Source of the DNA: a virus
IMG/VR virus record: IMGVR_UViG_3300045996_001044
Span: 1-26,097 of that record
Strand: one strand, 5' to 3'
Length of the DNA stretch: 26,097 bases
Shown here: piece by piece, positions 33-26,053 of the stretch
Position numbering within the stretch: position 1 is the stretch's first letter
Layout of the letters: each line of letters starts with the position of its first letter
Notes under the pieces: model-generated
What the model saw: only the letters and a program-made list of their open reading frames with translations
The model's database searches: none
What the model was told of the DNA's origin: nothing
Made by a program: the position numbers and the translations under genes

Positions 33-1475
33 ATGGCTATTCTCCCCGTTAACGCTCCTGCTAAGCGGCGTCGCCCGCTACTTCCGCCGCGTGGCAAGGG
101 TCGTTATGAAACCCTTAAGACTAGTGTAAAGCTCAAGCCTGGACAGAGCCTTGGCTTCGCTAAGGGTTCCGGGTACTACGCTCGTGGGGTTCCTTCGCCG
201 GTACGGCGTCCGGCCCCTAGCCGTGTTGCCCCCTCTCCCACTCGCGTTCCAGTAGCTAACCCCCTGCTTGCTCAGGCCCAAACCACGGTTCAGGGTCTTT
301 TTAGTCCTCTTATTCAGAAGCTCGCTCAGGAGCGGATTGCTGCTGAAACTCGGATGCGGCAGGCATACGAAGCTCATGGACAGGGCCTACAGAGCGCCCT
401 TCAGGATACGGCCGCGCCTATCGCGGGCGCGTATGACGCTGCTCTCGGTCAGGGCGCGAAGGTTAACGAAGCTATCGCTAACCGCATTGCCGGTCAGGGG
501 TCGGGAGACCTCGCCTCTAAGCTCGCTCAGATCGGAGCCGATCCTTCGGTTGCGGCTCAGGCCGCTCAGGTAGCCACTAACGCTGGTAACGCCGCTTTCG
601 CTAGTGGCGGTGCTGATCTTCAGAGTCTTATCGGTCAGCGCGGTGCTGCGCTGTCTTACGCTGCGAAACTTCCGGGTATTGGTCGTTTGGCTACTAATCA
701 GGACTACCAGGGTGCTTTGGCTCAGGCTCGTGGGCAGTTCGGAGAGAGGGAGAGGGCACTTCAGGAAGAGGCGGTGTCTACTGCCTGGGATCATTACACG
801 AATCTTCGCCAGGAAGGTATTGAAAAGAACGCCGCACGCGCTGAAATGAAGCAGGCGGAGGCGGATCGTCGCTCGCAGGAGCGCATGGCGTTCGCTGCGC
901 TTCGGGCTACCGCCCAGACCAAGGCTCAGGAAGCGCAGATTGAGGCGCAGATTCGCGCTCAGGAGCGCCAGTGGGAGATTGAGGATATGAATACTCAGCG
1001 TCAGTGGGACGTTGAGGACAACATCTTTAAGGCGGAGACCTCGCCCCGGTCTCAGCCGAAGCTCACCGGGCCTTCTAGCCAGAAGTTTATTACTGTTAAC
1101 GGCAGGGTTGTCAGGAACCCTAACTATCGGGCACCGGCCCCGAGGGGCAAGGGCGCTAGTGGTTCTAAGGACAACTGGCAGACTCCCGGCTCTGCGAAGC
1201 GTAACCGTGTTATCTCTCGCGCCACGAGCGCGGTAATGCTTGCTGGCCCTGAGGGTGGGATTCGGTTTACGCCAGAGGTTCTCGCTCGACTCCGCAAGTA
1301 TCCTATGTCTGCCGACGCGATTATCAATACGGCTATCAATACAGCTATTCGGGCAGAAATCGGTAACAACGTCAATTCCCCGGCTGCTAAGGCGATCCGC
1401 GCGAAGGTTCGCCAACAGCTTTCGGGCAAGGCGTGGACAGCCGCAGACGGTCGTAACTATACTTTTAGGGCATAA
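33..1475 (+). CDS. Putative internal virion / ejection protein (480 aa)
   Basis: I do not recognise a named family. The N-terminal ~70 residues are basic and Pro/Arg/Ala rich and look disordered. Residues ~85-235 are Ala/Gln-rich helix. Residues ~240-330 form a long charged helical stretch rich in E, Q, R and A, likely coiled coil. The C-terminal ~150 residues are basic with short structured patches. Size, helix content, basic ends and a position directly before another basic 684-residue protein and near a muralytic enzyme resemble podovirus inner-core proteins ejected with the DNA; this role is inferred. The start is fixed by TATCAT-N6-ATG and lacks a ribosome binding site. The stop overlaps the next ATG (TAATG at 1473-1477), so the two genes are translationally coupled. 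Alternatives are a tail-fibre-associated or other minor structural protein. Confidence 0.55.
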   Translation: MAILPVNAPAKRRRPLLPPRGKGRYETLKTSVKLKPGQSLGFAKGSGYYARGVPSPVRRPAPSRVAPSPTRVPVANPLLAQAQTTVQGLFSPLIQKLAQERIAAETRMRQAYEAHGQGLQSALQDTAAPIAGAYDAALGQGAKVNEAIANRIAGQGSGDLASKLAQIGADPSVAAQAAQVATNAGNAAFASGGADLQSLIGQRGAALSYAAKLPGIGRLATNQDYQGALAQARGQFGERERALQEEAVSTAWDHYTNLRQEGIEKNAARAEMKQAEADRRSQERMAFAALRATAQTKAQEAQIEAQIRAQERQWEIEDMNTQRQWDVEDNIFKAETSPRSQPKLTGPSSQKFITVNGRVVRNPNYRAPAPRGKGASGSKDNWQTPGSAKRNRVISRATSAVMLAGPEGGIRFTPEVLARLRKYPMSADAIINTAINTAIRAEIGNNVNSPAAKAIRAKVRQQLSGKAWTAADGRNYTFRA

Positions 1476-3529
1476 TGCCTGTTGAGCGTCAGAAAAAGCC
1501 TCGTGCCTCCGGTAAGGGAGGGGGGCGGAGCGCGCCCAGGGGCACCGGGCGTCTTGACGCTATCGGTAGTTTCCTCCGGGATCGTGGACGTGAAATTGAG
1601 GATATCGCTGTAGGTATTCCTACCGGGTTGTACACAATCGGTAGCGCCGCTGCGAGGCGCGACGAAGAGGAGCTTCGGAGCATCGCTAGGGCTGCTGCTG
1701 TTGGTTCCTACAACGATCTTCGCCACCCACTTCGCAATCCTACTAGTACGGCTCTGACGGTTCTCGGTCTCGCTTCCCTCGGCGGAGGGACGGCTGCTCG
1801 TGCTGTTGCCGGTGCAGGTAAGGCTAGGTCTACTCGTTCGCTCTCAAAGGGCGTAAGGGCGGCTGCGCGTAAGCCGCAGTATGAGCGGCGTGTCAAGGGT
1901 ATTCAGCGCGAGCGCGATCTTCCCCGGCGCTACAAGGACAAGACGACTGGACGCATGATCGAGGTCAAGGCTCCTCGCCCCGGTCGTAAAGAAATGGCTA
2001 TGTCGGCTTCACCGAACCCGATCTACCGGGCTGCTCGTGGTATGTCGATTGATCGTGCTTACGATATCTCCGCCAAGCGGGCGGCTGCGGTGGCGGCTAA
2101 GCCGAAGCTTCACAAGGAAGCGAAGGTGCTTAAGTACGACTCCAAGGAATACAAGAACATTATCAAGGGTGCTAGGACTAGCGCGGGAACCAAGCGCAAG
2201 GTGCGCGCTGCGGGGTACGACGCTATCGAGCATAAGAACGGCAACCTGACCGTCCTTAACCGCAACGTAGTCAAGCCTACCCGGAAGGGTTCTTACGCAC
2301 GCAACATTGAGCGGCGTACTCTTGACCAGCGTAAGCGTTACGGTAAGCAGGTAGAGTCGGCGGGCGTCCCGAAGGGCCGTAAGCCCGATTCGTCTCTTGC
2401 TACTGAAATCTGGCAGGCTCCCGCGAACGCTCTGCGCCTGACGATGTACACCCGGCCACGGTATTACGCTCAGAACCTTGCCGGTACGTCAGCGATGCTC
2501 GCGGCTCAGGGGCCGCTCGCGACCATGCGGAGTATCCCCCAGGTACGAAAGCTTAAGAAAACTGACAAGGAGACCTATGATCGTTTGCTTGCGATGATGG
2601 GAGAGACCGGTACTGGCTCTATTGATATGAGTAACATCGGTACTCGCGGTCTGTCGGCGCTCTCACACAAGGCATCTGACCTCGCCAACCGTCCTGAGTC
2701 CAAGATGAGGCTCGTGGCCGCTATGACGGCGGCTCGCCGCATGGGCCTCGATCAGCCTAGGCTTGCCCGCACGCTCAAGCAGCCTCAGGGCAACCCTTAT
2801 CAGCTACTCGCTCAGCGGGCTAACGAAGCGGTCGGAGACTACTCCCGCATCGGTGGTAGCGGCGGCTTCGGTAATCTTGAATCTAAGTTCGTGCGCTCCG
2901 GTCTGCCGGTGTTCTACCCGATGACCAAGGCGTTCACCCGCTACGCCGGTCGGTTCCCCGGCGAGCACTCGGCGCTTACCGCAGGATTGGCCCAGATTGG
3001 GCAGCAGGGCCGTGAGACTCAGAACGAGGCTTTCGGCGGGCCTATCCCGCCTTGGTCTCCGTACCTGATTCCTTACGGCGATGACGAAACGCTTAACCCG
3101 CAGAACGTTTATCCGTTCTCTCCTGGCGCAGACGTTATCCGCCAGTTGGCGCAGGGTCTCCCTGGCGCTGAGGGCCACGTTACTCTTAATCCTACTCAGA
3201 TTTTCGGCCCCGCACCGGAGCTTGCTTACGGGATGCTGACGGGTAAGAACCTTCAGACCGGGTTTGAGATTCCCCAGGTGGAAAAGTACGGTCGTTTCGG
3301 TGGCGCTGCAATGGAGCAGGGCCGCAACCTTATTCCTTTCGGGGATATGTTCTACCCGCACGAGTCCAAGGCGTTCGGTCGGCCTACGATTGAGGAGCGG
3401 CTTGGTCTGAGCGCGCTAGGCCCGACGTTCTATCCGCGCCCTACGGACTACGGGGTTCTCAGGCAGCAGGGCGGGACTGGCGATGCAAAGCCGAAGAAGC
3501 GGAAGCGGAAGGTTCGCAGGCAGCTTTAA
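1475..3529 (+). CDS. Large basic virion-associated protein with ADP-ribosyltransferase-like element (684 aa)
   Basis: The protein is very basic at both ends: R/K/G-rich residues 1-30, and a lysine/arginine run at residues 672-682 that suits nucleic-acid binding. Residues ~231-270 contain a patch (K-R-K-V-R-A-A-G-Y-D-A-I-E, then G-N-L-T-V-L-N and V-V-K-P-T) resembling the last strands of ADP-ribosyltransferase domains in phage polyvalent proteins. The upstream NAD-binding part is not obvious. Residues 313-345 (W-Q-A-P, M-Y-T-R-P-R-Y-Y, N-L-A-G-T) resemble the 'R-P-r-w-x-x-N-l-x-G' segment seen in large injected phage proteins. The C-terminal third is proline- and glycine-rich. Coupling to the preceding helical protein suggests both are carried in the virion and delivered on infection. 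Function is inferred from composition and context, not from a confident family match. Confidence 0.5.
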   Translation: MPVERQKKPRASGKGGGRSAPRGTGRLDAIGSFLRDRGREIEDIAVGIPTGLYTIGSAAARRDEEELRSIARAAAVGSYNDLRHPLRNPTSTALTVLGLASLGGGTAARAVAGAGKARSTRSLSKGVRAAARKPQYERRVKGIQRERDLPRRYKDKTTGRMIEVKAPRPGRKEMAMSASPNPIYRAARGMSIDRAYDISAKRAAAVAAKPKLHKEAKVLKYDSKEYKNIIKGARTSAGTKRKVRAAGYDAIEHKNGNLTVLNRNVVKPTRKGSYARNIERRTLDQRKRYGKQVESAGVPKGRKPDSSLATEIWQAPANALRLTMYTRPRYYAQNLAGTSAMLAAQGPLATMRSIPQVRKLKKTDKETYDRLLAMMGETGTGSIDMSNIGTRGLSALSHKASDLANRPESKMRLVAAMTAARRMGLDQPRLARTLKQPQGNPYQLLAQRANEAVGDYSRIGGSGGFGNLESKFVRSGLPVFYPMTKAFTRYAGRFPGEHSALTAGLAQIGQQGRETQNEAFGGPIPPWSPYLIPYGDDETLNPQNVYPFSPGADVIRQLAQGLPGAEGHVTLNPTQIFGPAPELAYGMLTGKNLQTGFEIPQVEKYGRFGGAAMEQGRNLIPFGDMFYPHESKAFGRPTIEERLGLSALGPTFYPRPTDYGVLRQQGGTGDAKPKKRKRKVRRQL

Positions 3530-4013: not shown

Positions 4014-4256
4014 TTAAACTTCTACGGTGTTAGCCTCAGCAGGAACCTCAGCCGCGTTGTATTTAACGCCAATAAAAGGTTCCACCTGAGGCGAGATATA
4101 GCCGATACCTAGATAGGCGGCTAGAGCGCCCGCGCCAGCGGAGACAAGCTTAACGTAAGGATTGTCAATCCAGATCGTTCCCGCAACAGCCGACACGGCG
4201 AGAACCATCTGCAAGAATCCTCTTAAAGCAAAACGAGCTTTAATAGTCTTGAACAT
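4014..4256 (-). CDS. Putative holin (80 aa, two membrane segments)
   Basis: The start is placed at MFKTIKARFALRG, because the longer reading frame only adds unlikely residues. It has a basic N-terminus, a first hydrophobic helix at ~residues 14-30, a short polar turn (WIDNPYVK), a second hydrophobic helix rich in Ala/Gly at ~37-56, and a polar acidic tail. This size and layout, with the 'R-G-F-L-Q-M-V-L-A-V' opening, matches small phage holins common in actinophages. It lies close to the two-domain lysin and to the amidase, as expected for lysis. The start overlaps the upstream gene by 17 bases with AGGA just ahead, suggesting coupling. An alternative is an unrelated small membrane protein. 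Confidence 0.6.
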   Translation of the reverse strand: MFKTIKARFALRGFLQMVLAVSAVAGTIWIDNPYVKLVSAGAGALAAYLGIGYISPQVEPFIGVKYNAAEVPAEANTVEV

Positions 4257-4449
4257 CGTCCTGCATCCTATCATACCGAATCTGCTCTCTGATACCGGCC
4301 AAGATAAGGTGAGTAACAGCAAGAGCGGCCTGCTCGATAAGGCTATCGTCTGCGTCCTCGTGCAGCGTCATACTGAAATTCACGGGCACCATGACGGTGA
4401 TTCCGTCAAAGGTTAGCTCAGCGGTTCCGTCGAAAACCATACTAGGCAT
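4240..4449 (-). CDS. Hypothetical soluble protein upstream of the holin-like gene (69 aa)
   Basis: The N-terminal half is strand-like (MVFDGTAELTFDGITVMVPV) and the C-terminal half is acidic and helical. There is no membrane segment or known motif. It shares a 14-base divergent intergenic region with the plus-strand lysin. On the minus strand TAAGAT-N6-ATG places the -10 six bases before the start, with no Shine-Dalgarno. It overlaps the holin-like gene by 17 bases, so it is probably co-expressed with it. Function unknown. Confidence 0.65.
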   Translation of the reverse strand: MPSMVFDGTAELTFDGITVMVPVNFSMTLHEDADDSLIEQAALAVTHLILAGIREQIRYDRMQDDVQDY

Positions 4450-5483: not shown

Positions 5484-5577
5484 GACGCCCGCAATCAATA
5501 CAAGGATCAGTAGCGCGAGGAAATCCCCAAAAGACTTCAGCCCCGCAGTTTAAACAAGTAGGATTACTTGCCGCCAA
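5281..5577 (-). CDS. Zinc-ribbon protein antisense to the lysin 3' end (98 aa)
   Basis: From a TTG at 5577 the frame gives a clear zinc ribbon, C8-x2-C11-x14-C26-x2-C29 (C-L-N-C-G-A-E-V-F-W and P-C-I-D-C-G-R-P), lying almost exactly in the 80-base gap between the lysin and amidase stop codons. It then continues for ~67 acidic, proline/tyrosine-rich residues antisense to the lysin gene. The start codon overlaps the amidase 3' end by 14 bases, like other coupled pairs here. No strong Shine-Dalgarno is visible (GAGAG is 11 bases away). The ribbon is convincing; the long tail may be real or a by-product of the opposite strand. The role is unknown; such ribbons bind nucleic acid or proteins. Confidence 0.55.
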   Translation of the reverse strand: MAASNPTCLNCGAEVFWGFPRATDPCIDCGRPIGFRQGADTEISLPVDCPKYLPLYLASFLGTDPETTDSGESSLYEQDQPYPYTDSPEHLGQADEQC

Positions 5578-6214
5578 GACGGATAAACTCTCGCCAGTTA
5601 GCGGTGTTCTTAAGCTCCGCCCAGGACATACCAGCGGCGCGCTGCTTGAGAATCCAAGCGCGCAAAGCGGCAAGGCGCTTCGTAGGATCGTACCCGACGA
5701 TAGCCCTTTCAAAAGCAGCAGACTTGTGGTACGCATAAATCTCGTCACCAGGGCAAGCGGTCTGCATATGATCGCGGTGTCCGTCAAACGTCATTTCGAC
5801 GGTGCCGTTCATACCGTAACGCCTAACAAACTCGCGGCCTACGTCCACCATCGCAAGACGGCCCTGGTAGGTCAGATCATCGCGGAGCTTGGAGTCATCG
5901 CCCAGGAAGCAAGCGGCTAGCGTGTAGCTGTTAGCCTCACCGGTAGCAGCGGTGCGGATACCCCACCCGCGCCCGACAAAGACATAGCCGTGCTTGCAGA
6001 GAACGAACGAATAAGCGATATCCGCCCAACCCTGAGTAACCATATGGTAACGCTGAATCCCACGTACACGAGCGGCGCAGTTAGCGTGGTCGGCCTGCTC
6101 ATCGGCGTCTGCCGCAGAGTAGTGGTACACTAGCCGCTTAATAGCGGAGGGAGGGAGAGGGGTAGCGTACTTGAACGGCATTGCTCCCCACTGAGGACGG
6201 GTAACGAGCTTCAT
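5564..6214 (-). CDS. N-acetylmuramoyl-L-alanine amidase, endolysin (216 aa)
   Basis: This is an amidase_2/PGRP fold that cleaves the lactyl-L-alanine bond of peptidoglycan. Motifs visible: L-V-Y-H-Y-S-A with zinc ligand His31, W-A-D-I-A-Y-S-F at 63-70, G-R-G-W at 81-84, and G-H-R-D-H-M-Q-T-A-C-P-G at 145-156 with His146 and Cys154 as likely zinc ligands. Residues ~172-216 form a helical tail with no recognised wall-binding repeat. There is no signal peptide, so release would rely on a holin. The start is at MKLVTRPQWG, because TACGAT-N6-ATG precedes it without a Shine-Dalgarno. A longer frame adds 14 unlikely residues. The promoter overlaps the end of the upstream gene, giving lysis its own transcript. 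Confidence 0.9.
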   Translation of the reverse strand: MKLVTRPQWGAMPFKYATPLPPSAIKRLVYHYSAADADEQADHANCAARVRGIQRYHMVTQGWADIAYSFVLCKHGYVFVGRGWGIRTAATGEANSYTLAACFLGDDSKLRDDLTYQGRLAMVDVGREFVRRYGMNGTVEMTFDGHRDHMQTACPGDEIYAYHKSAAFERAIVGYDPTKRLAALRAWILKQRAAGMSWAELKNTANWREFIRLGGK

Positions 6215-6216
6215 GG

Positions 6217-6579
6217 CTACATCGTAGCAGGAATGATGTTGACCGGAATCCCGCATTGAGTCGCAATGCGAATCATATGCTCGGTTCCTTTGCTAACACC
6301 GTCCCAGATCGCCACGCATTGATCTACGTTTTCGATAGCGGCCATTTCAACGTTACGAATATATCCAGCAGCTTTGCCGTGCTTCGTCCAGTCGGCAGGG
6401 TAAGCCCACTCGGTAATGTCTTTTTCATGGGCAATCTGCCCCGCGAGTTGGTCGGCGCTGTTCCTACAGTCGCCGTGAATAATCTCGTCAATCGGCCACC
6501 ATTGCTTAAGCTCTTCCTCAAGAAGATACTTATGATGCGGTGAAGCGTAGCCTCTTGTGCCGCAAACGATTACTCTCAA
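6217..6579 (-). CDS. DUF2493 / YspA-like SLOG-family protein (120 aa)
   Basis: It begins M-R-V-I-V-C-G-T-R-G-Y, a Rossmann-like first strand and loop. I-I-H-G-D-C-R-N-S-A-D-Q-L-A follows, then A-D-W-T-K-H-G-K-A-A-G-Y-I-R-N and the closing D-G-V-S-K-G-T-E-H-M-I-R-I-A / G-I-P-V-N-I-I. This order is the signature of DUF2493 (cpYpsA-related SLOG domain), thought to bind nucleotides or their derivatives, with no settled reaction. It starts with TTG, preceded by AGAAGG at good spacing, and shares TTGA with the stop of the upstream gene. It sits in a block of nucleotide and DNA metabolism genes. Confidence 0.85.
   Translation of the reverse strand: MRVIVCGTRGYASPHHKYLLEEELKQWWPIDEIIHGDCRNSADQLAGQIAHEKDITEWAYPADWTKHGKAAGYIRNVEMAAIENVDQCVAIWDGVSKGTEHMIRIATQCGIPVNIIPATM
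6221..6226 (-). promoter_or_regulatory. Leaderless -10 element for the amidase gene
   Basis: TACGAT followed by GTAGCC and ATG on the minus strand. The element sits inside the last codons of the upstream SLOG-family gene and would drive the amidase separately from the replication operon. There is no Shine-Dalgarno before the ATG. Confidence 0.55.
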
Positions 6580-9052: not shown

Positions 9053-9627
9053 TATGGTCTCCATATCCGGGGAGCCTTCAGCGCCCCATGCTCGATTAGT
9101 GCAGCGCGTAGCTGCTTGTGCTGTATCACGTCAGATACTACCCGCTTTCGCGTTTTCTCAAACGAGTCCGGCAAAAGTCGGTTAGCGTCCCTCCACTCTT
9201 GCTGAGTCATATGGTGCTTAGGAGCCTCTAGGCCGTACATAGCGGCTAGCGCCTCCTGACTCATTGAGAGTCCATCACGGCGAATCAGATCATTCTTAGT
9301 GTCGCTCGTGAGCTTAGGGCTGAGGGGTTCCATGCCCCATTCCATAAGGGAACCGTTAATGATCGGCAGATCGTGGTTCCGAATATAGTGCCCGGTGACG
9401 ATATCGGCTTGATCGTAAACACAACAAAACCGTTCCAGTAAGAACACGGGATCGAAGTCGCCGTTCGCTCCAAGCAGTTCGTAGTCAACTTCCCTCTCCC
9501 CCTCCCACGACCAAGCGATAGCAGTAATCTCTGCCGTAGGCTTGCCGTCGTACCAATAAGAGAGTGGTCGGTTCTCAATATCGAAATCAAGAATCCGAAG
9601 CTCTCTTGTTGAGCGTTTAATCTTCAC
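9052..9627 (-). CDS. DnaQ-like 3'-5' exonuclease domain protein (191 aa)
   Basis: RNase H-like exonuclease motifs: I-L-D-F-D-I-E-N-R-P with Asp16 and Glu18 (motif I), V-T-G-H-Y-I-R-N-H-D-L-P-I-I with Asp86 (motif II), and V-V-S-D-V-I-Q-H-K-Q-L with Asp166 (motif III). These acidic residues would bind two metal ions and remove 3' nucleotides. It is a stand-alone domain, and no polymerase gene follows in this window, so it may proofread or trim recombination ends for a polymerase encoded elsewhere. GTG start within the previous gene (11-base overlap). Confidence 0.75.
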   Translation of the reverse strand: MKIKRSTRELRILDFDIENRPLSYWYDGKPTAEITAIAWSWEGEREVDYELLGANGDFDPVFLLERFCCVYDQADIVTGHYIRNHDLPIINGSLMEWGMEPLSPKLTSDTKNDLIRRDGLSMSQEALAAMYGLEAPKHHMTQQEWRDANRLLPDSFEKTRKRVVSDVIQHKQLRAALIEHGALKAPRIWRP

Positions 9628-9802
9628 GTTCTATCTCAAACACCGGTAGCTTGCCCATACCAATTTCAAAGGCAAGACGCTCAAGCTCAGGCTTCAGAAC
9701 AGACTCTTCCCACTCGATCCGCTCTAGCCTCTGCTTGAATTGAAACTCCGCCGTCAACGCTGCGCGGGCCTGCCTGAGTGCTGTTTTAGGATCGTTAGTC
9801 AT
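9617..9802 (-). CDS. Small coiled-coil-like protein (61 aa)
   Basis: A charged single helix: A-L-R-Q-A-R-A-A-L, F-K-Q-R-L-E-R-I-E-W-E-E and L-K-P-E-L-E-R-L-A. The ATG overlaps the previous stop (ATGACTAA), with GAAGGG just upstream. It could dimerise or bind a partner such as the exonuclease encoded next. No family recognised. Confidence 0.65.
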   Translation of the reverse strand: MTNDPKTALRQARAALTAEFQFKQRLERIEWEESVLKPELERLAFEIGMGKLPVFEIERED

Positions 9803-9995
9803 GGTTCCCTTCTAGCTCTCGGCGCTTTCTCTTAATGTCGTAAAGCGCCTTGCTCACGTAGACCTTATCAGAATTCCGCTCTGTCCAGGCTTTTTCCTGC
9901 TGCCTCTTACGCTTAGCCCCCTCGGGGGTTCTCCACTGGCCCGCGTAGAACACTCGCGCAGGAGTCTCTGCGACGGCACTAGTAGTAGTCGGCAA
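9795..9995 (-). CDS. Small basic protein (66 aa)
   Basis: The core F-Y-A-G-Q-W-R-T-P-E-G-A-K-R-K-R-Q-Q-E-K is strongly basic, and the end Y-D-I-K-R-K-R-R-E-L looks nucleic-acid binding. TTG 9995 was chosen because GAGG lies six bases upstream. An ATG at 10016 would add seven residues but has no ribosome binding site. No family recognised. Next to an HTH gene and an exonuclease gene. Confidence 0.6.
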   Translation of the reverse strand: MPTTTSAVAETPARVFYAGQWRTPEGAKRKRQQEKAWTERNSDKVYVSKALYDIKRKRRELEGNHD

Positions 9996-10299
9996 GTTCA
10001 CCCTCGTACCATGCATGGTTCATATCCATAGCGGTAAGTAGTTTGTCGGCCTCTTCGTGTGTCACGTATTCTTTCTCTCCTGCGATGATCTTTGTGACTA
10101 CCTTTTTCGACAACTTACTCCGTTCGGTTAGAATTTTCTCGTGCGGTATTGCCGTACCAGAAAGAAGCGGCCTTACTGAGCCGCTAATGTCATTCCTTAC
10201 TGTCTCGTTACCGTAGAGGGGAAAGGTGACTCCGTATCTTCGTTTCCATTCCTCAAAGATTTCCAAGATAAGGATGCTAGGGATTCCTTGGTTTTCCAC
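9979..10299 (-). CDS. Putative helix-turn-helix DNA-binding protein (106 aa)
   Basis: Residues ~55-92 (K-I-L-T-E-R-S-K-L-S-K-K-V-V, I-I-A-G-E-K-E-Y-V-T-H-E-E-A-D-K-L-L) follow the layout of a small HTH domain common in actinophages, where a recognition helix precedes a turn and 'x-x-A-D-k-L-L'. The first 50 residues have no clear motif. It probably binds DNA as a regulator or in replication. It starts with GTG after a 20-base gap holding TATGCT nine bases upstream, a possible weak promoter; no Shine-Dalgarno is seen. Confidence 0.6.
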   Translation of the reverse strand: MENQGIPSILILEIFEEWKRRYGVTFPLYGNETVRNDISGSVRPLLSGTAIPHEKILTERSKLSKKVVTKIIAGEKEYVTHEEADKLLTAMDMNHAWYEGELADYY

Positions 10300-13743: not shown

Positions 13744-14379
13744 TTAAACCTCTGTCTCGCCAGCGTACTTCGCCACGACCTCATCGTAGGTCTTAGCGTC
13801 CGGGATACGACGGTCTCCGCCGCCACCCCCGGCAGGCTCAAAGTCATGCGGGCCACGCTTAAGTTGCGCTTTGTACTCCTCAAGAGCCTCGTTCTTGATC
13901 TGGTCACGAATAGCAATGGCCTGCTTGACGCCTTCCTCAACAGCCTTGCGAGCATCGTTACCAATGCCCGGAGAACCGATAGCAGACTGAGCAAACGCTT
14001 CAGCCATTTTGCGGTCAAACTTGCCGTACTCCTGCTCATATCGATCATGGAGACTGTTTAGTTCCTTAGTGCCTGCTTCCTTAACCGAAGTCTCAAAGAC
14101 AGGAATCATCGGAGCAATCATCTGCTCGACTCTCTGATTGATATAAGTATCAATGTCAACGTCCTCAGGATCAGGCTCCTCAGGCTGCATAAGAGGCTGC
14201 ACAAGCTGAGCGAGTTGCTGCACGGCCTGCTGCGTGCGCGTCCACTCTTCCTGGGACGGTGCCCACTGAGGGGCTGCGGTTTCGGGGGCGGGCGGAGTAG
14301 TTACCTCCCCGTCCGGGGTAGTAATATCGGCGGGCGGATTCTCTCCGCCAGCCCCCTCTTCGTGTCGGAATCTAATCAT
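13744..14379 (-). CDS. Putative capsid scaffolding protein (211 aa)
   Basis: Acidic, Pro/Thr-rich residues 1-45; a Gln/Glu-rich helical core (~45-175) with Q-A-V-Q-Q-L-A-Q-L-V-Q-P-L-M, E-Q-M-I-A-P-M-I-P and a further long charged helix; then a glycine stretch (~186-191) and a short C-terminal segment. Composition, length and nearness to portal and terminase match phage scaffolding proteins, which shape the procapsid and are then lost. Usually the major capsid gene follows; here the next gene belongs to the replication block. The start has TAGGCT-N6-ATG and no Shine-Dalgarno. Confidence 0.65.
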   Translation of the reverse strand: MIRFRHEEGAGGENPPADITTPDGEVTTPPAPETAAPQWAPSQEEWTRTQQAVQQLAQLVQPLMQPEEPDPEDVDIDTYINQRVEQMIAPMIPVFETSVKEAGTKELNSLHDRYEQEYGKFDRKMAEAFAQSAIGSPGIGNDARKAVEEGVKQAIAIRDQIKNEALEEYKAQLKRGPHDFEPAGGGGGDRRIPDAKTYDEVVAKYAGETEV

Positions 14380-14452: not shown

Positions 14453-14698
14453 TTACGGGGGAGGCAACGGGTAATCGCAATACAAGAGCTTAAATTCACC
14501 CGTGTATTGGTTGTAGAAGATGCCGGTACGACCACCTGAAATACCAAGGCGGTACTGGCATCCGTCGTATAGCGGGCCTACCCACCCGTAACCTCCGCCA
14601 GAGTCAACAGGATAAAAACTAGGCTCCCAAGCAAGCGCGCTTGGCGCGGCCACAAGCAGAGCCAACGAGGAAACGAGACCAGCAATTAGTCGCTTCAT
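14453..14698 (-). CDS. Exported small protein C of three-gene cassette (81 aa)
   Basis: A signal peptide of ~23 residues (M-K-R-L, hydrophobic core, P-S-A-L-A cleavage site) leaves a mature protein of ~58 residues rich in Gly, Tyr and Pro, with two cysteines (C-Q-Y-R and L-L-Y-C-D), a possible disulfide. Y-T-G-E-F near the end recalls T-G-Q in its two upstream neighbours. The ATG shares ATGA with the previous stop. Function unknown. Export suggests action at the envelope or outside the infected cell. Confidence 0.75.
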   Translation of the reverse strand: MKRLIAGLVSSLALLVAAPSALAWEPSFYPVDSGGGYGWVGPLYDGCQYRLGISGGRTGIFYNQYTGEFKLLYCDYPLPPP

Positions 14699-14871
14699 GC
14701 GTACCAACACTGTCCCGTCGCGGCGCTGCAACACAAACGCTTACCATCCCAGGTAATCATGCAGGTAATCGTTGAGCCTCCCGGCCCATCCATGGGGTAT
14801 GCGTTTGCACTCGATACCGTACCAAGCAGCGCTAGAGCAGCAAGCGAGCTAACAATTAAACGCTTCAGCAT
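14695..14871 (-). CDS. Exported small protein B of three-gene cassette (58 aa)
   Basis: Signal peptide M-L-K-R-L to S-S-A-N-A (~24 residues), then a mature chain of ~34 residues with four cysteines (T-C-M-I, L-C-C-S and Q-C-W-Y), enough for two disulfides. A-T-G-Q-C-W near the end aligns with T-G-Q-E-Y-W in protein A. The ATG lies inside the end of gene A (ATGCTGA) and no Shine-Dalgarno is needed if translation is coupled. No lipobox cysteine directly follows the cleavage site, so it is probably released rather than lipid-anchored. Confidence 0.75.
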   Translation of the reverse strand: MLKRLIVSSLAALALLGTVSSANAYPMDGPGGSTITCMITWDGKRLCCSAATGQCWYA

Positions 14872-15017
14872 CGTACCCAATACTCCTGTCCTGTAAACGG
14901 ATCGCGATAGAGACAGCGAGGATAACCGTCGCCGCCAGGGTCTACCCAACTAGCCAGAGCGGTAGAGGGGGCCGCAAGCGTAAGAGCGGCAATGAGCACA
15001 ACAAGGATTCTCTTCAT
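14865..15017 (-). CDS. Exported small protein A of three-gene cassette (50 aa)
   Basis: Signal peptide M-K-R-I-L ... S-T-A-L-A (~22 residues) and a mature peptide of ~28 residues: S-W-V-D-P-G-G-D-G-Y-P, C-L-Y-R, F-T-G-Q-E-Y-W-V-R-C. Two cysteines could close a loop. It is the first of three related, overlapping genes. A leaderless -10 (TACACT-N6-ATG) gives the cassette its own promoter just behind the portal gene. Size and disulfides resemble secreted microproteins; targets are unknown. Confidence 0.75.
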   Translation of the reverse strand: MKRILVVLIAALTLAAPSTALASWVDPGGDGYPRCLYRDPFTGQEYWVRC

Positions 15018-15023
15018 GGTCTC

Positions 15024-15029
15024 AGTGTA
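15024..15029 (-). promoter_or_regulatory. Leaderless -10 element for the exported-protein cassette
   Basis: TACACT, then GAGACC, then ATG on the minus strand, in the 16-base gap after the portal stop codon. TACACTGAG also occurs at the plus-strand elements 21771 and 23308, so the same sigma factor may read all three. Confidence 0.6.
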
Positions 15030-15033
15030 GCAG

Positions 15034-17070
15034 CTATCCAGAGAGAGCCGAAACGTCCATTCCGCCCTCAGGCATCCCGCTTCCTAGCGGGTGCCCACCC
15101 GGCTCAGGTGCCGGTGTTGACGGCTGAGGCACCATCGCCCCTGCGGGCGGGGTAACGATAGCGTTAGTACGAGCAGACTCCTCATGCTCAAGGATATGCA
15201 TTTCAAAAGTGTCCACGAGCGCCTGCGCGTCCTCGTCGCCCATATCCACACGGGTCTGAGCCTCCATCTGAGCCTGCCTATGGACGTTAACATGCAATTC
15301 GTCATCGTCATACGGTGCCACCGGAGGGGCCTGAAGCGTATTCAAGATAACAGTGTTCTCAAGCTCTGCCCGATGGGCGTCAGCGTCACCGATAGACGCC
15401 GGGATAGCCTGCGGCTTACCAGCGTTGAGAGACTCCACGTACCACGTGAGGGGAAGCTTGCCGCCAGCGGCAGCCCAGATATCGTTAATCTTCTGAATCT
15501 CTGCGGCCTGCGAGCGAGGCATAGAACCTTCGTTAGTGCGCTTGAGCAGATACCGTGCCGGAATATCGTTAGCGTCAAAGACAAGCTCGTCAACGCGACC
15601 CTTCGGCCCCTCGATATCCATACGCTTACCTCTCGGCCAATTACGCATAAGCTCCAAGGTATCCCAACACAAATCTTCCATGACCTCCCGGAAGCTCTGC
15701 CCGATAGGATCGAGCTTAAGAGCATCGTTTTCAGTAAGCAGGGCCATAGCCGAGTAGGCCGAGACTCCTGAGGGGGCCTGCCCCATCGTGACTCCACGCA
15801 CGCCTAGGGCGCGCTCCACGCTCTCCACCTGATTGCGGATATCCTCCATGAACCACGCCCCCGGCTGAACGCCTGCCTGCGGCTGAGGGAGAGGCGCACC
15901 GGGGCGAACCTCCACGTACTCAAACGGCTCACCGGTCTTACGACGGGCAAGGCTCTGCTCCTCGATATAGACAACAGGCATGTTGCGGTCAATGATCGCG
16001 TTCAACTGCGTATGACGTTTGTTGTAAATCTTCTGGGGGCCAATGCCGTTCTCGATAAAAGCCTTACCCATAAACCGACCAGGGAGAACCTGCCAGCGGA
16101 AGTAATGCATACCCGTCTTAGGGCCAAGGGGATGATCGGTGAGAGGGAGACTGTCGCGCACGTCAAGCAGAGCGGTCTCCGTGAAAACCACCGTCCGGCC
16201 CTTCGGGTAAAGCTGATTCGGCTCATCGTATCCTGTGTACACAAAGGCTTTGTTTTCAAGCTTGGTAGCGGTGCCGTCCGTGCGGTAGCCCGCCGTAAGT
16301 GAGGCAGAGTTGTCAATCTCTTCCGCGATGACGTTCTCGGCAAGGTCGCCGTAGCGATGCTTAATCTCGGCCACGTCCACGGGCCGCTTAATCAGATGCC
16401 AGGGGAAGTCACGGGGATGATGGTAGCCCGGAGGCGGCAGGATATTCTCGGCGGTGAGAATCTCCCAACAGATTTTACCTTCCCTAAGCGTTCGGATAGT
16501 TGCGGTCTGACCGTTGCTTGCCTTTTCTGCCACGTACTTCGCGGCCTCGCCGGGATCGAGGATCGGCGTACCGTCCTTGTAGGGCACGTCACCGATGATT
16601 TCACCGTAGCGCCTGTCATAGCGGGCGCGAACGCCTAGCGTCCCGTCGATAGCAAGGTAGTTAAGGAAGTCCAATACATGCTGGTCGCCCTTCCATTCGT
16701 GATCCCAACCCCACCCGAAGGCAGCGTTCATAAACCTAGAGATAACCTCTGCCTCCGCGTGCTCCTGAGTAGCCAGGAAGGTAGGCTTGTAGTCATTGGA
16801 AGTAAGACGACCAACCACGGTCAGTAGGTACTGATCGAGCATGTTGGAAGTAACAAGCTCCACGCCGTTACGTTGAGAGACCTCCACGATCCTGCCGTCC
16901 CGCGTGTTGATATTCAGGTGCTGCTTGCCTGCGGCGAAGAGCCTGTTAATCCGAATCTGCTGTAGGTACGGACGCATTTCCTGCTCCGCCTCATGCTTAC
17001 GCTGAAGCCAAGGGGCCAACACGTCATTGACGACGTACCTGTTACCACTGATTACAACTTCGTCCGGCAT
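15034..17070 (-). CDS. Portal protein (678 aa)
   Basis: A large protein with the make-up of a portal subunit. A helical N-terminal region has R-K-H-E-A-E-Q-E-M-R-P-Y and R-I-N-R-L-F-A-A-G. A mixed wing domain follows, with G-T-L-G-V-R-A-R-Y and C-W-E-I-L-T-A-E-N-I-L-P-P-P-G. Later come the stem-like segment G-A-W-F-M-E-D-I-R-N-Q-V-E-S-V-E-R-A-L-G, G-V-S-A-Y-S-A-M-A-L-L-T-E-N-D, and an acidic Pro/Gly-rich tail. Twelve copies would form the ring through which terminase pumps DNA. The size is near that of P22-type podovirus portals. TAAACT-N6-ATG sets the start; AAAGGG touches the ATG and is too close to act as a ribosome binding site. Confidence 0.85.
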   Translation of the reverse strand: MPDEVVISGNRYVVNDVLAPWLQRKHEAEQEMRPYLQQIRINRLFAAGKQHLNINTRDGRIVEVSQRNGVELVTSNMLDQYLLTVVGRLTSNDYKPTFLATQEHAEAEVISRFMNAAFGWGWDHEWKGDQHVLDFLNYLAIDGTLGVRARYDRRYGEIIGDVPYKDGTPILDPGEAAKYVAEKASNGQTATIRTLREGKICWEILTAENILPPPGYHHPRDFPWHLIKRPVDVAEIKHRYGDLAENVIAEEIDNSASLTAGYRTDGTATKLENKAFVYTGYDEPNQLYPKGRTVVFTETALLDVRDSLPLTDHPLGPKTGMHYFRWQVLPGRFMGKAFIENGIGPQKIYNKRHTQLNAIIDRNMPVVYIEEQSLARRKTGEPFEYVEVRPGAPLPQPQAGVQPGAWFMEDIRNQVESVERALGVRGVTMGQAPSGVSAYSAMALLTENDALKLDPIGQSFREVMEDLCWDTLELMRNWPRGKRMDIEGPKGRVDELVFDANDIPARYLLKRTNEGSMPRSQAAEIQKINDIWAAAGGKLPLTWYVESLNAGKPQAIPASIGDADAHRAELENTVILNTLQAPPVAPYDDDELHVNVHRQAQMEAQTRVDMGDEDAQALVDTFEMHILEHEESARTNAIVTPPAGAMVPQPSTPAPEPGGHPLGSGMPEGGMDVSALSG

Positions 17071-21759: not shown

Positions 21760-21770
21760 GGGGTGTGTGC

Positions 21771-23203: not shown

Positions 23204-23307
23204 AGCTTTTGTCGAATCTCTTTTCTACCCTCACTACTTCTCTCACTAATCAGTGTAGCACAACAAGCCAAAGGCACGAGAGAGGGTTTAGGAATCAGGG
23301 TTTCGGG

Positions 23308-23429
23308 TACACTGAGGGCCTACCGCCTTTCGCGGGGCGGCAACAAAGCACAAAGCTGCGGGACTCGGATGGTTTCGTAGGGCCGGTGGTTCATTAAGAG
23401 CGCGACCGGCTATAACGAAAGGAGCTTTA
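23308..23429 (+). promoter_or_regulatory. Promoter and folded leader of the second right sub-operon
   Basis: The -10 element TACACT (23308-23313), in the context TTTCGGG-TACACTGAG, implies a ~110-base leader. It contains CCGCC/GGCGG (23323-23340) and GCCGGT/ACCGGC (23382-23410), then AAAGGAG before ATG 23430. No family of leader RNA recognised. Positions 23204-23307 hold nothing else that I can identify. Confidence 0.45.
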
Positions 23430-25098: not shown

Positions 25099-25722
25099 AT
25101 GATTCGTAAATACTGGATATGGCTACTGGACGCTGTTGTGCTGCTGCTCATCCTGTACGCCGTGCTGTTTCCGCAGGGCGCGCACGCGGCCAATCAGCCG
25201 CATTGGAAGCTTGACGCTGCGGTTACGGCTGTTGCGGGGAAGCCGGTAGCGGCGTTCTGCGAAGTGGACTCGGAGCATTGGGCAGACCGTATTAGAACGA
25301 ACTTCGGCCCTGCTCAGTCTCCTTCGCTCCTGTTGGGCTACACCCTGCTTAGTAACCCTATCGTTTACCTGTCGCCACGGGTGTGTATCGCTCTCAAGCA
25401 GGCGTTGGAGCGAGGTATCACACTGGCAGGGGCTTACCCGGTCTCGCTTGCGCTCAACACTCTGGCGCATGAGGCTGTTCACCAGCGGGGAGTTATTAAC
25501 GAAGCTGTTACCGAGTGTCTCGCTAACCGTTATGTGCGTACACTTGCTGTAGCACATTTCGGCGTACCGGTTAAGGTAACCGTGAAGCGTATCGTGCGGG
25601 TGAGTGGGAGACTCGTGACCCGAACCGTTATGGTTGCTAACCCGTTGCTTACCCGTTTGACGGAGCTTGCTAAGTATTGGACTAGCACTAAGCCCGCTCA
25701 GTACCGTGGGGGTGTGTGTTGA
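25099..25722 (+). CDS. Exported HExxH metallopeptidase-like protein (207 aa)
   Basis: Residues 6-25 form a hydrophobic helix and A-H-A at 28-30 is a plausible signal-peptidase site, so the protein is secreted or anchored outside. T-L-A-H-E-A-V-H-Q-R at 121-130 is a zincin HExxH motif (His124, Glu125, His128), and I-N-E-A-V-T-E-C-L-A-N-R-Y follows, with Glu135 a likely third zinc ligand. Four cysteines (54, 96, 140, 207) might form disulfides. It would cut a protein or peptide outside the membrane; the substrate is unknown. GAGGAGG lies well before the ATG. No M-family assignment is certain. Confidence 0.7.
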   Translation: MIRKYWIWLLDAVVLLLILYAVLFPQGAHAANQPHWKLDAAVTAVAGKPVAAFCEVDSEHWADRIRTNFGPAQSPSLLLGYTLLSNPIVYLSPRVCIALKQALERGITLAGAYPVSLALNTLAHEAVHQRGVINEAVTECLANRYVRTLAVAHFGVPVKVTVKRIVRVSGRLVTRTVMVANPLLTRLTELAKYWTSTKPAQYRGGVC

Positions 25723-25892
25723 ACTTGGAAAAGTGGTATACGGAGAGGGTGCAGGTTCCCGGCCATGAAAAGCCAGTGACGTTGCGAGGGGATACCCCGC
25801 TTACTCTTTACAACAATTTAATTGATCTTGCTATTCGGGCTGAGGAAGCTGCTATGCGCGTTAAGAACGAGGCACCAGGGGATTTCGCATGA
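25719..25892 (+). CDS. Hypothetical small protein (57 aa)
   Basis: TTG start overlapping the previous stop (TTGA). Reads M-N-L-E-K-W-Y-T-E-R-V-Q-V-P-G, then P-V-T-L-R-G-D-T-P-L-T-L and a helical end. No family recognised; coupled to the zincin-like gene and to the next gene (ATGA). Confidence 0.6.
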   Translation: MNLEKWYTERVQVPGHEKPVTLRGDTPLTLYNNLIDLAIRAEEAAMRVKNEAPGDFA

Positions 25893-26053
25893 CCGACCAA
25901 GAGCGGATCGTGTGGCTTGAGGAAACACTAGAGATTATTTTGTATAACGTTACTAGCGATCTAGGCGGAAGGGTTATCGTCGTTCACGACGAACATGCCG
26001 TAGGTATTGACGCTTTCGTTAAGGACGCTCTAGCTGTTAGCAGGGAGGAGTAA
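25889..26053 (+). CDS. Hypothetical small protein (54 aa)
   Basis: Starts M-T-D-Q-E-R-I-V-W-L-E-E-T-L-E-I-I, then G-G-R-V-I-V-V-H-D-E-H-A-V and a final helix. Acidic. ATGA overlap upstream, and its stop overlaps the next ATG (TAATG). Confidence 0.62.
   Translation: MTDQERIVWLEETLEIILYNVTSDLGGRVIVVHDEHAVGIDAFVKDALAVSREE

Follow-up and report, generated by a model that had tools for sequence, protein, structure and literature searches.

What could three very small genes for exported-type proteins do within the packaging/portal gene run of a phage, and how did they come to lie there? The question is raised by a cassette in the window, i.e. the whole stretch of DNA analysed here, a virus fragment of 26,097 bases.

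The cassette and its surroundings

The three genes, of 50, 58 and 81 codons, overlap on the minus strand between 15017 and 14453, as initially annotated. Gene 1 (15017-14865) encodes a predicted exported microprotein of 50 aa, made of a signal peptide, MKRILVVLIAALTLAAPSTALA, and a mature chain of 28 residues with two Cys, SWVDPGGDGYPRCLYRDPFTGQEYWVRC. Gene 2 (14871-14695) encodes a predicted exported microprotein of 58 aa with a mature chain of 34 residues and four Cys, YPMDGPGGSTITCMITWDGKRLCCSAATGQCWYA, and gene 3 (14698-14453) one of 81 aa, with 58 mature residues and two Cys. These mature lengths, obtained with the A-x-A rule, the Cys counts and the gene overlaps (ATGCTGA and ATGA) all match the initial description. 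The mature chains are short and Gly/Tyr/Cys-rich; each has D-x(1,2)-G-G close to its start and a T-G-[QE] motif, so that the GG and T-G-[QE] said to be common to the three are literally there.

The upstream neighbour (15034..17070, minus strand) had been labelled a portal protein; the label is backed by the protein's 24% identity (E 6e-15) to the portal annotated in Microbacterium phage Shocker. The downstream neighbour (13744..14379, minus strand, 211 codons) is a putative scaffold-like protein with homologs at the same place in the contigs L009, L022 and G005; the scaffold label, taken from position and composition only, is plausible. Family searches with this protein gave no match, and a proposed link to the post-portal genes of Shocker and of Cellulosimicrobium phage DS1 was dropped after a profile comparison without match.

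A leaderless promoter had also been proposed in front of gene 1. A promoter-like extended -10 motif, TGCTACACTGA, does occur on the minus strand at 15022..15032, 4 nt before the ATG, as a match to the motif only. Near-matches to it number six in the window versus 1.6 expected, and an identical or similar one (TGGTATACTGA) stands before genes in related contigs, which makes a phage promoter producing a leaderless mRNA for the cassette plausible. The site was not flagged in a scan for the sigma-70 consensus, and no terminator-like site that could be the cassette's own was found on the minus strand between 13600 and 15300. Elsewhere in the window, two promoter-like TACACTGA motifs lie in opposite directions about 45 bases apart within 23250-23315 (23260 minus, 23305 plus), possibly as divergent promoters between gene blocks; a further TACACTGA motif occurs at 21768 on the plus strand.

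Signals for export and predicted folds

All three proteins have the features of Sec-type signal peptides, namely positive charge at the start, then a hydrophobic segment and an A-x-A site (A-L-A, A-N-A and A-L-A in genes 1-3), in agreement with the initial view of them as exported microproteins. A crude, home-made signal-peptide scan covering the 274 ORF families of the window gave scores of at least 40 to six families, half of which are the cassette genes; two of the other three are antisense or out of frame within longer genes. No Cys stands at the cleavage site, as a lipobox would have it. The products are probably exported and not lipidated, and would therefore remain in solution within the wall space or be released. 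Counted from sequence, the net charge of the mature chains at neutral pH is about -1, 0 and -2 for genes 1-3. A cationic antimicrobial toxin is unlikely, since the chains are neutral or slightly acidic.

AlphaFold models were built from two-sequence alignments and are of moderate confidence only. In gene 1, the model has a beta-hairpin at residues 34-49 (strands 34-38 and 45-49, block pLDDT 86-89); in gene 2, it has four short beta strands (block pLDDT 82-84 from residue 31). Foldseek searches with the cassette models returned no significant structural match, and the proteins themselves matched no family in Pfam, PHROGs, NCBIfam, PADLOC or PDB sequences. Hits of gene 2 to MmpS5 and to the proteasome (E 0.3-1) were set aside as being at chance level, despite a TC-x-IT-x-DG stretch that resembles a strand of MmpS5.

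A variable site in the nearest relatives

As judged from its portal, 24-27% identical to those of Shocker and DS1, the phage of the window is remote from isolated phages, and the same similarity suggests that its hosts are probably actinobacterial. Close relatives are found among IMG/VR contigs only, with portal identities of 57% (L008/L009) and 52-53% (L022, L023 and L024). The portal as a single query in IMG/VR gave no match and a genome-wide scan with the portal alignment gave no relatives; the terminase as query retrieved only unrelated phages with different portals, which were discarded. Two relatives encode an exported lipoprotein matching PHROG 478 (L028, 10459-10854, and L025, 1980-2396, both on the minus strand), the former also matching Pfam PF25682 (Mycobacterium phage VG64). 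These lipoproteins are consistent with actinobacterial hosts and are not seen in the window fragment.

The cassette is absent from the portal-to-scaffold gap of L009, L022 and L024. Unrelated small genes occupy the gap instead, at 11900-12160 in L009 (48 aa), 2700-3235 in L022 (73 and 110 aa) and 12127-12660 in L024 (73 and 77 aa), and none of them scored as having a signal peptide. The interval is therefore a variable cargo site, apparently a general one among these phages, and the cassette is cargo, outside the conserved head module.

A second cassette in a distant phage

Scanning virus contigs with gene 2 revealed one locus (L030), on IMGVR_UViG_3300045996_001067 (G014; 46,979 bp, 69% GC), which was also the sole match of the gene 1 alignment in IMG/VR. 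It consists of three exported-type genes in tandem, closely packed or overlapping on the same strand over about 0.6 kb. The gene 1 ortholog (9598-9783) shares 20 of 28 mature residues with its counterpart in the window, and the gene 2 ortholog (10001-10174) is identical at all 31 residues that run from DGPGG to its end; in shuffle tests, both reach the floor (p 0.0002). The middle gene (9786-10004) is exported-like, with a signal peptide less clear than those of the other two, and has no demonstrable homology to gene 3 (shuffle p about 0.30). Gene order is thus 1-3-2 there versus 1-2-3 in the window, if the middle gene is counted as the third.

The two phages are otherwise far apart. The terminase of the window has no match in the second phage, and the other proteins common to both are mostly 24-29% identical, apart from two short ones near 56%. 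There, RecB-like and HNH-like genes stand upstream of the cassette, which is away from the terminase, portal and capsid genes. Across the 34-residue mature chain of gene 2, 14 codon changes are silent, giving dN 0.05-0.07, dS 0.8-1.4 and dN/dS about 0.04-0.09, and GC3 (0.54 versus 0.86 in the two copies) tracks the composition of each genome. Genes 1 and 2 are shown to be coding, and not chance ORFs, by their conservation in a distant genome through silent substitutions, and the substitution pattern of gene 2 shows its mature peptide to be under very strong purifying selection.

The expectation that relatives carry related cassettes is borne out in part: direct relatives do not, and a distant phage has a homologous one, which is stronger evidence than presence in direct relatives would be. 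As in a moron or other cargo, close relatives lack the genes at this locus and the set recurs in another phage, homology of gene 3 being not demonstrable. Mobility is read from one homologous cassette, and the collection scans used exact short peptide patterns that can miss divergent ones. Other searches for relatives were negative: protein queries P0001 and P0003 against phages and IMG/VR; query P0002 against phages, and against plasmids apart from one noise match (E 0.7); and a profile of the three cassette proteins against 13 records of viruses that are related or distantly so. The one match of a genome-wide scan with gene 2, in a Thiogranum MAG, was rejected as out of frame within an esterase-like gene, and matches in phage nd12 and a Klebsiella phage (E about 2 or worse) as noise, the former being inside a 1.7-kb gene.

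Other window genes have counterparts in the same distant phage. An exported-type 207-aa protein (25099-25722, plus strand), whose signal peptide is strong and whose HEAVH motif is of the HExxH zinc-protease-like type, is possibly an exported metallopeptidase; its homolog (G014:19894-20331) has HESWH and adjoins a conserved 54-aa gene (window 25889-26053). A short hydrophobic protein (4014-4322, minus strand), holin-like by eye, is 56% identical over 73 residues to a G014 gene, and a 684-aa protein (1475-3529, plus strand) shares a region with a 1365-aa protein of G014 and a 743-aa protein of G005.

Relationships among the three genes

The initial annotation had read the common motifs as a sign of tandem duplication and divergence, the ancestor being taken here as one exported hairpin. 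Besides D-x(1,2)-G-G and T-G-[QE] in all three proteins, the mutual similarity of the signal peptides (shuffle p 0.0003-0.01) speaks for such an origin, and so does the DNA encoding the signal peptides of genes 2 and 3, whose similarity slightly exceeds that of recoded controls (p 0.012). Signal peptides, however, tend to resemble one another. In shuffle and profile comparisons, no similarity above chance emerges among the mature domains (shuffle p 0.06-0.63), and the profiles align signal peptides only, the alignment of genes 2 and 3 reaching a few residues into the mature chain. On this evidence, the claim of duplication is not upheld, and such an origin is unlikely.

Possible functions

The explanation preferred here, though tentatively, is that the cassette is mobile, moron-like phage cargo encoding three Sec-exported, disulfide-containing microproteins, with superinfection exclusion as their likeliest purpose. 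Their translation would be coupled on a leaderless mRNA; signal peptidase I would cleave the products, which would become small oxidised beta-hairpins beyond the membrane of the host, probably an actinobacterium. Remaining in the wall space or escaping from it, the non-lipidated peptides may bind a conserved envelope target, and so mask or jam the receptor or the DNA-entry route of competing phages; separate peptides would give two or three binding specificities. For exclusion speak signal peptides among the best of the window, the homologous cassette and hairpin models with pLDDT 82-89 in the mature parts. Against it, no link of family, fold or sequence to any exclusion protein was found (Pfam, PHROGs, NCBIfam, PADLOC, PDB and Foldseek), and the lipobox or anchor of Cor, Llp and Ltp is absent. 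A cassette that moves between distant phages and includes a near-frozen peptide is most simply explained if the peptides act on some conserved component of the host's envelope. The near-identity of the gene 2 peptide fits attachment to an invariant part of the host, and would be equally compatible with help in lysis or the blocking of an envelope enzyme; among the roles proposed initially, exclusion appears the best.

The first of these two options is an accessory of envelope attack or lysis, in which the peptides bind the wall or membrane late and aid the amidase endolysin or the disruption of outer layers, as a soluble equivalent of a spanin-type helper. The placement inside the packaging/portal gene run and the amidase endolysin (5564-6256) of the same phage are in its favour; short two-Cys hairpins could bind the wall, and there is a known case of a lysis module with which a standalone SH3 protein is linked (PMC13164509). 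It is nevertheless unlikely, as in the window the cassette adjoins neither the endolysin gene nor the holin-like ones, its site in the nearest relatives, phages that must lyse too, does not contain it, and in the distant phage it lies beside nuclease genes.

Small disulfide-stapled hairpins are also the classic shape of inhibitors, and the near-invariant peptide of gene 2 suggests that its target in the host is conserved. The peptides might then inhibit a host envelope enzyme or a stress/defence sensor (a protease, sortase or wall hydrolase) and thereby shield the infected cell or the assembly of virions. The lack of similarity to inhibitor families in Pfam, NCBIfam and PDB sequence searches weighs against this, and leaves it improbable.

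Action on other cells, by bacteriocin-like toxins or communication peptides, would agree with signal peptides lacking membrane anchors and with small Cys-containing chains, but has still lower standing given mature chains that are not cationic, searches of toxin families without match and no immunity or receptor gene recognised alongside. In arbitrium, a known phage signal system, the secreted peptide AimP has its own receptor gene, AimR (PMC11323111). No AimP/AimR-like pair is recognised at the cassette. Finally, that very short genes without family match are chance ORFs or uncleaved, unexported membrane anchors is hardly credible in view of their synonymous-biased conservation in a distant genome and the AxA cleavage sites in both gene 2 copies.

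Returning to exclusion, a bolder and more doubtful proposal is that of an undescribed, horizontally moving cassette secreting disulfide-stapled microproteins (in one of them, a sequence of 31 residues is near-invariant) to block a conserved actinobacterial envelope component, as a non-lipidated, multi-peptide system of superinfection exclusion or envelope takeover. If true, such soluble secreted peptides, conserved as a set that moves between phages, would open the outer face of actinobacterial (or other) hosts to study, the near-frozen gene 2 peptide pointing to a specific host target.

Comparison with known systems

The closest parallels are the Cor/Llp loci of phages T1, phi80, N15, HK022 and T5. 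The cor locus is a cassette of small exported or membrane genes common to otherwise unrelated FhuA-using phages, where Cor is encoded together with two membrane-associated genes (PMC13164509), and T5 Llp blocks FhuA (PMC9586334). Likeness lies in the small exported proteins, in the proposed block of further infection at the level of the envelope and in a small gene set present in otherwise distant phages (here the window and the G014 phage, homology of gene 3 being not demonstrable). Cor and Llp, however, are outer-membrane lipoproteins in phages of Gram-negative hosts, whereas the present cassette has no lipobox, its hosts are probably actinobacteria, and no sequence or fold match links it to them (Pfam, NCBIfam, PDB and Foldseek, with models of moderate confidence).

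Ltp of phage TP-J34 and gp41 of a Cutibacterium acnes phage are signal-peptide proteins of phages with Gram-positive hosts, for which a block of DNA entry has been proposed (PMC11480721). They resemble the cassette products as signal-peptide-bearing phage proteins, but are about 140-180 aa in length with a long non-cytoplasmic domain (repeated HTH domains in Ltp), in contrast to proteins of 50, 58 and 81 aa with 28-58 mature residues, paired Cys and no matching Pfam domain. With neither lipobox nor domain, the cassette would not be a member of the Cor/Llp or Ltp/gp41 families, yet it may work like them.

Phage small genes of unknown function form a very large pool (reviewed in PMC11323111). 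Within that pool, the cassette has no PHROGs family and is set apart by being co-inherited, of exported type and endowed with a near-invariant mature peptide.
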